NCBI RefSeq assembly: GCF_022760925.1
Contig: NZ_JAKTNT010000015.1
Location: 1-64,000, forward strand
Direction of reading: 5' to 3'
Length of the DNA stretch: 64,000 nucleotides
Source of the DNA: Thermus hydrothermalis
GTDB lineage: Bacteria; Deinococcota; Deinococci; Deinococcales; Thermaceae
This document shows, piece after piece, positions 5,351 to 6,086 of the stretch; positions within the stretch are counted from its first letter, which is position 1; the number at the start of each line of letters is the position of its first letter. The translations under genes were made by a program, and so were the position numbers. Under the pieces are notes generated by a model. That model ran no database searches and was not told the DNA's origin. It saw only the letters and a program-made list of their open reading frames with translations.

Positions 5351-5379
5351 CAAAATGAAAACCCCGGGCGTGCCCGGGG
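5351..5379 (-). terminator. Intrinsic terminator downstream of speD
   Basis: An 8-bp perfect stem CCCCGGGC/GCCCGGGG at 5362-5369 and 5372-5379 is followed, reading on the minus strand, by TTTTCATTTTG. It lies 17 bases beyond the speD stop and separates speD from the NEW3/ABC operon. Confidence 0.85.
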
Positions 5380-5395: not shown

Positions 5396-5830
5396 TCAGC
5401 TGACCCGGGCCTCCAGGTACTCCCGTTCGCCCAGGACGATCTTCCGGGCCAGCTCGGGGTCTTTAGGGAACTCCTTGCCCCGGTGGATCATGTAGGTTTC
5501 GTAGCGCCCGATTTCAAAGACCTCGGCCAACTTCTTCAGGGCCTTGGCCATGTCAAAGGCCTTGCAGGAGAAGATGTCAATGGAGAGGAAGCGCTTCTTG
5601 GGGAAGGTATGGATGGCGATGTGGCTTTCGGCGATGATCACCACCCCCGTCACCCCGTCCTCCCCGTTCGGGCCGTAGCTGTAGACGAAGGGGGGGAGGA
5701 CCTTGGTCATCTCCATCTCCTGGGGGAGCTCGTCCAGGACACGGCGCACCAGCTCAGCGTCCTGGAGCTTTGCGGGGTTGGCGTCGTACCCGTCCACCAT
5801 GAGATGCGGACCGAATCCGAAGAGTTCCAC
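5396..5830 (-). CDS. speD: S-adenosylmethionine decarboxylase proenzyme (SpeD family)
   Basis: A 144-residue prokaryotic-type AdoMet decarboxylase. It is a self-processing pyruvoyl enzyme: the sequence AESHIAIHTFP places the cleavage point between Glu68 and Ser69, with Ser69 becoming the pyruvoyl group and His70 following. Decarboxylated AdoMet is the aminopropyl donor for polyamine synthesis, which Thermus uses extensively (via N1-aminopropylagmatine, established knowledge). The GTG at 5830 is preferred because AAGGAGGTG sits six bases upstream; a GTG at 5839 overlaps that Shine-Dalgarno. It stands alone between a strong promoter and a terminator. Some SpeD homologues in other taxa have become amino acid decarboxylases, so substrate should be held with slight caution. 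Confidence 0.9.
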   Translation of the reverse strand: MELFGFGPHLMVDGYDANPAKLQDAELVRRVLDELPQEMEMTKVLPPFVYSYGPNGEDGVTGVVIIAESHIAIHTFPKKRFLSIDIFSCKAFDMAKALKKLAEVFEIGRYETYMIHRGKEFPKDPELARKIVLGEREYLEARVS

Positions 5831-5883
5831 CCTGACCACCTCCTTCCCGTGCCCCCCGGGGTATCCCCCGCGGCACGCCCCCC

Positions 5884-5912
5884 ATTATGCCCCCCCCTCC
5901 CCCCCCTGTCAA
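5884..5912 (-). promoter_or_regulatory. speD promoter with homopurine G8-A-G8 spacer
   Basis: On the minus strand a perfect -35 TTGACA (5907-5912) and -10 CATAAT (5884-5889) are separated by exactly 17 bases. The spacer is eight G, one A and eight G. The expected start site is near 5877, giving a leader of about 47 bases with a strong ribosome binding site. Confidence 0.85.
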
Positions 5913-6086
5913 TACCTCGTTCCCGGGCGGGAAAAGCCCGCCTTGCCCCCGGGAAAGCCCCCTTCCTGGGGCGGTGGGGGTAGCCAAGGAAGGAAGCTTC
6001 GTTTGGGCCAAGCCTCTTATACGGGAATGGGGTATCTGGCGGCGGGAAGGTGGCCTGCCCGACGCAAGGCCCTTGGGGGAAAGGTG

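Follow-up and report, generated by a model that had tools for sequence, protein, structure and literature searches.

The speD locus and its promoter

The stretch of Thermus hydrothermalis DNA analysed here, 64,000 nucleotides long and called the window below, carries speD on its minus strand, preceded by a promoter whose two hexamers are separated by an almost homopolymeric tract (Table 1). The plus strand at 5884-5912 reads ATTATG CCCCCCCC T CCCCCCCC TGTCAA, so that the description given in a first-pass annotation, TTGACA, a 17-bp spacer of G8-A-G8 and CATAAT on the minus strand, is exact to the base from 5912 to 5884. The same annotation had assigned the promoter to speD, and rightly so: the downstream gene matches TIGR03330 with 83.5 bits in a profile search (cut-off 75.65). 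With its hexamers 17 bp apart, inside the 16-18 bp typical of sigma-A promoters, the element is a housekeeping promoter of the sigma-A class that serves speD. It matches 11 of 12 hexamer positions and is the sole promoter-like match between 5300 and 6200; transcription is predicted to start near 5876-5878, 6-8 nt past the -10 hexamer.

Table 1. Features of the speD promoter, leader and gene in the window
Feature	Position	Strand	Remarks
-35 hexamer TTGACA	5907..5912	minus	identical in 26/26 genus genomes; present at 31/32 speD loci outside the genus
17-bp spacer, G8-A-G8 (GGGGGGGGAGGGGGGGG)	5890..5906	minus	G7-8 A G7-8 (+C) in 26/26 genus genomes
-10 hexamer CATAAT	5884..5889	minus	kept in 25/26 genus genomes; GATAAT in the other
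G6 discriminator, between -10 and predicted transcription start	5878..5883	minus	invariant in 26/26 genus genomes and the sister genus
Predicted 5'-terminal leader hairpin	5848..5877	minus	arms CGTGCC (5877-5872) and GGCACG (5853-5848); inner GGGG/CCCC stem
Shine-Dalgarno AAGGAGG	5839..5845	minus	conserved in genus
speD, S-adenosylmethionine decarboxylase, 144 aa	5396..5830	minus	TIGR03330; conserved GTG/ATG-GAA-CTC start
Terminator-like hairpin 3' of speD	5362..5379	minus	weak: 1 found against 1.1 expected in shuffles

The mechanical open reading frame of speD begins at 5839, within the Shine-Dalgarno sequence. The likely start is instead GTG at 5830: across the order, the conserved start is an XTG codon followed at once by GAA or GAG. 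At locus L012 (genome G023; its named counterpart, L164, is from Thermus tenuipuniceus) the conserved start codon is ACG and neither GTG nor ATG, so that speD of this species may use ACG itself or a GTG within the Shine-Dalgarno sequence as its start.

Conservation of the spacer within Thermus

How constant is the tract among relatives? A speD hit was obtained in 26 genomes of the genus, and every one of them keeps the tract; a 27th genome, 65% complete, gave no hit and stands outside this count. The comparison proposed in the first-pass annotation, whether the tract and its length persist in other Thermus, thus comes out in its favour: 21 genomes have a 17-bp spacer and five a 16-bp one, and a sister genus has G6TAGAG7. 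The variants are one-G insertions or deletions in either run and, three times, replacement of the last G by C; where one run counts seven, an added C restores 17 bp in three genomes. The symmetry to the base that had also been pointed out is exact in the window but is not required elsewhere, as 7/8, 8/7 and terminal-C variants occur. Retention in 26 genomes excludes an artefact of assembly or of homopolymer sequencing.

The speD spacer has a mean pairwise identity of 0.95; the spacers of the groES and metF promoters reach 0.58 and 0.74, the 50 bp upstream 0.65 and the fourfold sites of speD 0.76. By parsimony on the genus tree, nine changes are needed over the 17 sites of the speD spacer, six of them alignment shifts of the A, against 97 over 17 sites for the groES spacer, 42 over 17 for the metF spacer and 239 over the 50 upstream positions in the same genomes; per site this makes 0.53 for the speD spacer, 5.7 for groES, 4.8 upstream and 2.2 at fourfold sites. 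The groES promoter is a telling control, with hexamers and a CIRCE-like repeat conserved while its 17-bp spacer drifts freely. Since the speD tract changes so slowly beside this control, strong purifying selection on it is well supported.

Upstream of groES (L127-L153) the CIRCE-like inverted repeat reads TTTGACACTC...GAGCGTCAAA, and the -10 hexamer is mostly AATAAT in the genus. The metF promoter (G000, contig C7:110182-110210; L095) is TTGACC-GGGGGTGGGGGAGGGGC-TACACT, and the G-richness of its spacer is partly kept across the genus. The ATG of metF lies about 8 nt past the -10 hexamer, so its mRNA is probably leaderless. MetF supplies methionine and hence S-adenosylmethionine, the substrate of SpeD. 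In G008 and G020 (L124-L126) and in G016 (L123) metF appears to be broken up between frames or to contain an in-frame stop, to be read as frameshift or sequencing error.

Rarity of the tract in the genome

G7AG7 occurs once in the 2.36-Mb genome, and a search of the whole genome with a 77-bp promoter-leader query found no second copy. The pattern TTGACA-N(16-18)-NATAAT has two sites only, those of speD and groES. By pattern search, on which all these genome-wide promoter statistics rest, 123 promoter-like sites were found, against five for a reversed-pattern control; among the 100 of the 123 that were listed, metF alone, with G at 14 of 17 positions, has a strongly G-rich spacer besides speD. 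Within the window, G8 runs are depleted, eight being seen where dinucleotide shuffles lead one to expect 125. As such runs are rarer than expected, the adjacent pair in the speD promoter is not a by-product of composition.

The promoter beyond the genus

The frame TTGACA-(16 to 18)-(C/T/G)ATAAT stands upstream of speD at 31 of 32 further loci read in the order; at the remaining one, L060, it was sought and not found. Outside Thermus and its sister genus, the spacer read on the coding strand is often C-tracted, such as CCCCTACCCCCCCTCCC, or mixed, such as TTCTGGATCCTCGAGCC, and several genomes of genus g4 have a spacer without any tract. A run of at least six G or C is found in 14 of these 30 spacers against 1.5% of background 17-mers from the same loci, the genera being non-independent samples. 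In Aquificota relatives, the DNA upstream is AT-rich and the tract is absent. Outside Thermus, then, the hexamers outlast the tract, whose polarity flips; the common denominator, where there is any, is a homopolymeric dG.dC duplex.

The leader RNA

The short leader and the G6 after the -10 hexamer are as frozen among the genus genomes as the spacer tract. The arms CGTGCC and GGCACG are invariant in 27 genomes and the segment that they enclose varies in length, a combination more in keeping with a hairpin in the RNA than with an operator in the DNA; being invariant, the arms offer no covariation as evidence for the hairpin. In the predicted fold at 70 C the arms stay paired and the Shine-Dalgarno sequence is open, while the stability of the window's leader fold is no greater than that of shuffled sequence. 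Rfam covariance models gave no match at E up to 1 to 11 speD loci including the window's. The leader may be a 5' hairpin that would shield the end of the mRNA and leave the ribosome site free. Reiterative initiation, as in pyrG, might also occur at the G6/C start of speD.

The speD leaders of related genera are structured too, but differently from that of Thermus. Those of genus g4 (L037-L050, L061, L062) are 78-110 nt long and have in common two hairpins and a GGTGGCCGTC segment that hardly varies. They show some covariation and make a candidate cis-regulatory RNA, with no Rfam match at E up to 1. In the two-hairpin structure 95.9% of cells are paired and three pairs are changed on both sides, whereas slid controls reach 27-45% pairing; it fared better than the RNAalifold fold, which was rejected for an implausible G-U-rich helix. 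No common structure is evident between this leader and that of Thermus.

What is selected in the spacer?

The most economical mechanism is an effect of the homopolymeric spacer on the DNA shape of a strong sigma-A promoter, and we give about an even chance to the reading that the tract is a selected DNA-shape element, an undertwisted, stiff and partly A-like dG.dC duplex in the spacer of an otherwise ordinary sigma-A promoter. The dinucleotide twist of G8AG8 sums to 528.8 degrees, below every one of 20,000 17-mers sampled from the window (mean 543.7, sd 3.7), while 8% of window 17-mers are more stable in stacking. The twist is extreme and the stacking is not; it is thus shape rather than melting energy that is distinctive. 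In the open complex of T. aquaticus, the polymerase makes no contact with DNA between -29 and -18 (PMC4593229), and direct reading of the spacer bases by the enzyme is therefore unlikely; in solution, poly-d(G) duplexes take a form between B and A (PMC3902906). The A-like duplex proposed in the first-pass annotation agrees with both of these reports. It is also to be noted that GC-rich spacers make promoters of E. coli dependent on negative supercoiling (PMC8695583). If shape is indeed what matters, and not the strand, replacement of G-tracts by C-tracts in sister genera is to be expected.

Selection would then act on the shape of DNA in cis, not via a bound protein or a G-quadruplex. The physical state of the spacer duplex would set how RNA polymerase meets the perfect -35 and near-perfect -10 hexamers and how readily the complex opens, and the single A may break up what would otherwise be a long run prone to slippage. 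Expression of speD might thereby respond to superhelicity, temperature or ions, and possibly to polyamines. Some points run counter to selection on shape. An undertwisted spacer might lengthen to 18 bp, yet the variants shorten to 16; several g4 genomes lack any tract; a sequence-specific protein could also explain the conservation; and published modelling finds that the sequence of a spacer affects the alignment of -35 and -10 less than one base of length does (PMC9303308).

Could the tract instead fold into a G-quadruplex, with an i-motif opposite, or into a triplex in the negatively supercoiled promoter, and gate the polymerase, with polyamines shifting the equilibrium and so feeding back on speD? 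Four G runs of at least three with short loops are complete inside the spacer in 26 of 26 genus genomes and, on the opposite strand, in six of 31 others, against 0.02-0.03% of background 17-mers and 0.017% of those in the window; the G4Hunter score of the tract is 3.76, and its mirror symmetry and all-purine strand would be suitable for a triplex as well. Duplex shape and quadruplex capacity are therefore both extreme here, and sequence alone cannot separate the two. Polyamines can induce B-to-A or B-to-Z changes (PMC3317384), and T. thermophilus depends on SpeD1 both for its long and branched polyamines and to grow above 75 C (PMC6418473). However, the G strand flips or the motif vanishes in sister genera, where the spacers other than those six are C-tracted or mixed; as the hexamers persist there, a quadruplex on the coding strand is not a general requirement. 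Two Thermales motifs, of sequences other than this one, failed to fold in vitro and motifs in Thermales show no enrichment at start sites (PMC6200779), spermidine and spermine prefer AT-rich over GC-rich DNA (PMC3722294), and speE of the same pathway has no such promoter. Indeed, a promoter motif shared by polyamine genes was considered and rejected, since speE, at the loci that were read, follows immediately on another reading frame. The published evidence leans mildly against both the quadruplex and the polyamine feedback, and their combination is considered unlikely. Less likely again is the broader idea of product sensing with no regulator, in which the polyamine pool would alter the conformation of the dG.dC spacer (by a B/A shift, quadruplex or triplex) and hence how the speD promoter is aligned or opened.

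A sequence-specific regulator, for example one of the CsoR/RcnR type, that recognises the spacer and acts on speD as repressor or activator is rated as unlikely as the quadruplex. This family recognises G-tract DNA, which is A-like, by shape (PMC3902906), and the roughly 80 bp conserved here are comparable to a regulated promoter. The spacer, however, is flanked by TTGACA and CATAAT, not by TAC-N9-GTA or a TACT/AGTA dyad, and holds a mirror repeat but no inverted one; the flips of polarity in other genera also speak against a protein reading it. A TAC-N9-GTA palindrome does lie 107-123 bp upstream of the promoter (6019-6035), but nearer to sdhC, and the pattern finds none in 5 of 26 genomes. 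Changes in run length are known to switch genes elsewhere, as in phase-variable promoters with poly-G or poly-C spacers such as Neisseria porA. That speD is switched in this way by slippage is hardly credible: one-G differences between species do occur in either run, but the A interrupts the G run, the total stays at 16-17 bp in 26 of 26 genus genomes, partly by the compensating C described above, two conspecific genomes (L001, L002) are identical, and speD of T. thermophilus is required for high-temperature growth (PMC6418473). It is just as improbable that the tract has no function of its own and persists through recent common ancestry or a bias of mutation. The GC-richness of Thermus DNA and the existence of further G-rich spacers, that of metF among them, would fit such a view. 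Yet per-site rates of change are 4-11 times higher in the upstream DNA, at fourfold sites and in the spacers of groES and metF, by which this explanation is already disfavoured, and G8 runs are depleted in the window.

The palindrome in the sdhC-speD intergenic region has the form ATAC-N9-GTAT (ATACCCCATTCCCGTAT on the minus strand) and so contains TAC-N9-GTA, the pattern of type 2 operators of CsoR (PMC3902906). A matching TAC/GTA palindrome is found at the corresponding place in 21 of 26 genus genomes, only loosely in two of them (L022, L023), and in the sister genus.

Comparison with known promoters

The nearest relatives of an element selected for its shape are the spacer-tuned sigma-70/sigma-A promoters (PMC8695583, PMC9303308, PMC2613000), which like that of speD have canonical hexamers at optimal spacing and a variable spacer that is not contacted. 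Spacer composition tunes promoter strength and the response to supercoiling (Auble and deHaseth 1986/1988, as cited in these papers). The speD spacer differs in being close to a single-base homopolymer and conserved in sequence genus-wide, while natural spacers are described as rarely conserved (PMC8695583). The G-quadruplex motifs in promoters of Deinococcales, of the same phylum, likewise have four G runs (PMC6200779), but in speD two G8 runs fill the space between -35 and -10, whereas the Thermales motifs are reported to be randomly placed and the two that were tested did not fold. The operators of RcnR type 1 (TACT-G6-N-AGTA) and CsoR type 2 (TAC-N9-GTA) share with speD an A-like G-tract at the promoter (PMC3902906) and differ by their flanking dyad. 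Phase-variable spacers also place a homopolymer between -35 and -10; that of speD is interrupted, constrained in length and conserved between species. No earlier report of a conserved speD spacer was found in the literature searched, whose coverage leaves out most subscription journals.

Promoter spacers are usually regarded as linkers of about 17 bp, neutral in sequence. A G8-A-G8 tract frozen throughout a genus, in a region that the T. aquaticus polymerase leaves uncontacted in its open complex, makes a clean natural case for the question: can DNA shape alone be a selected element of a promoter? The product of speD serves to make polycations that bind DNA, and structures of Thermus RNA polymerase have been solved. 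If the polyamine pool did act on the spacer, the end products of the pathway would feed back directly on the shape of promoter DNA.
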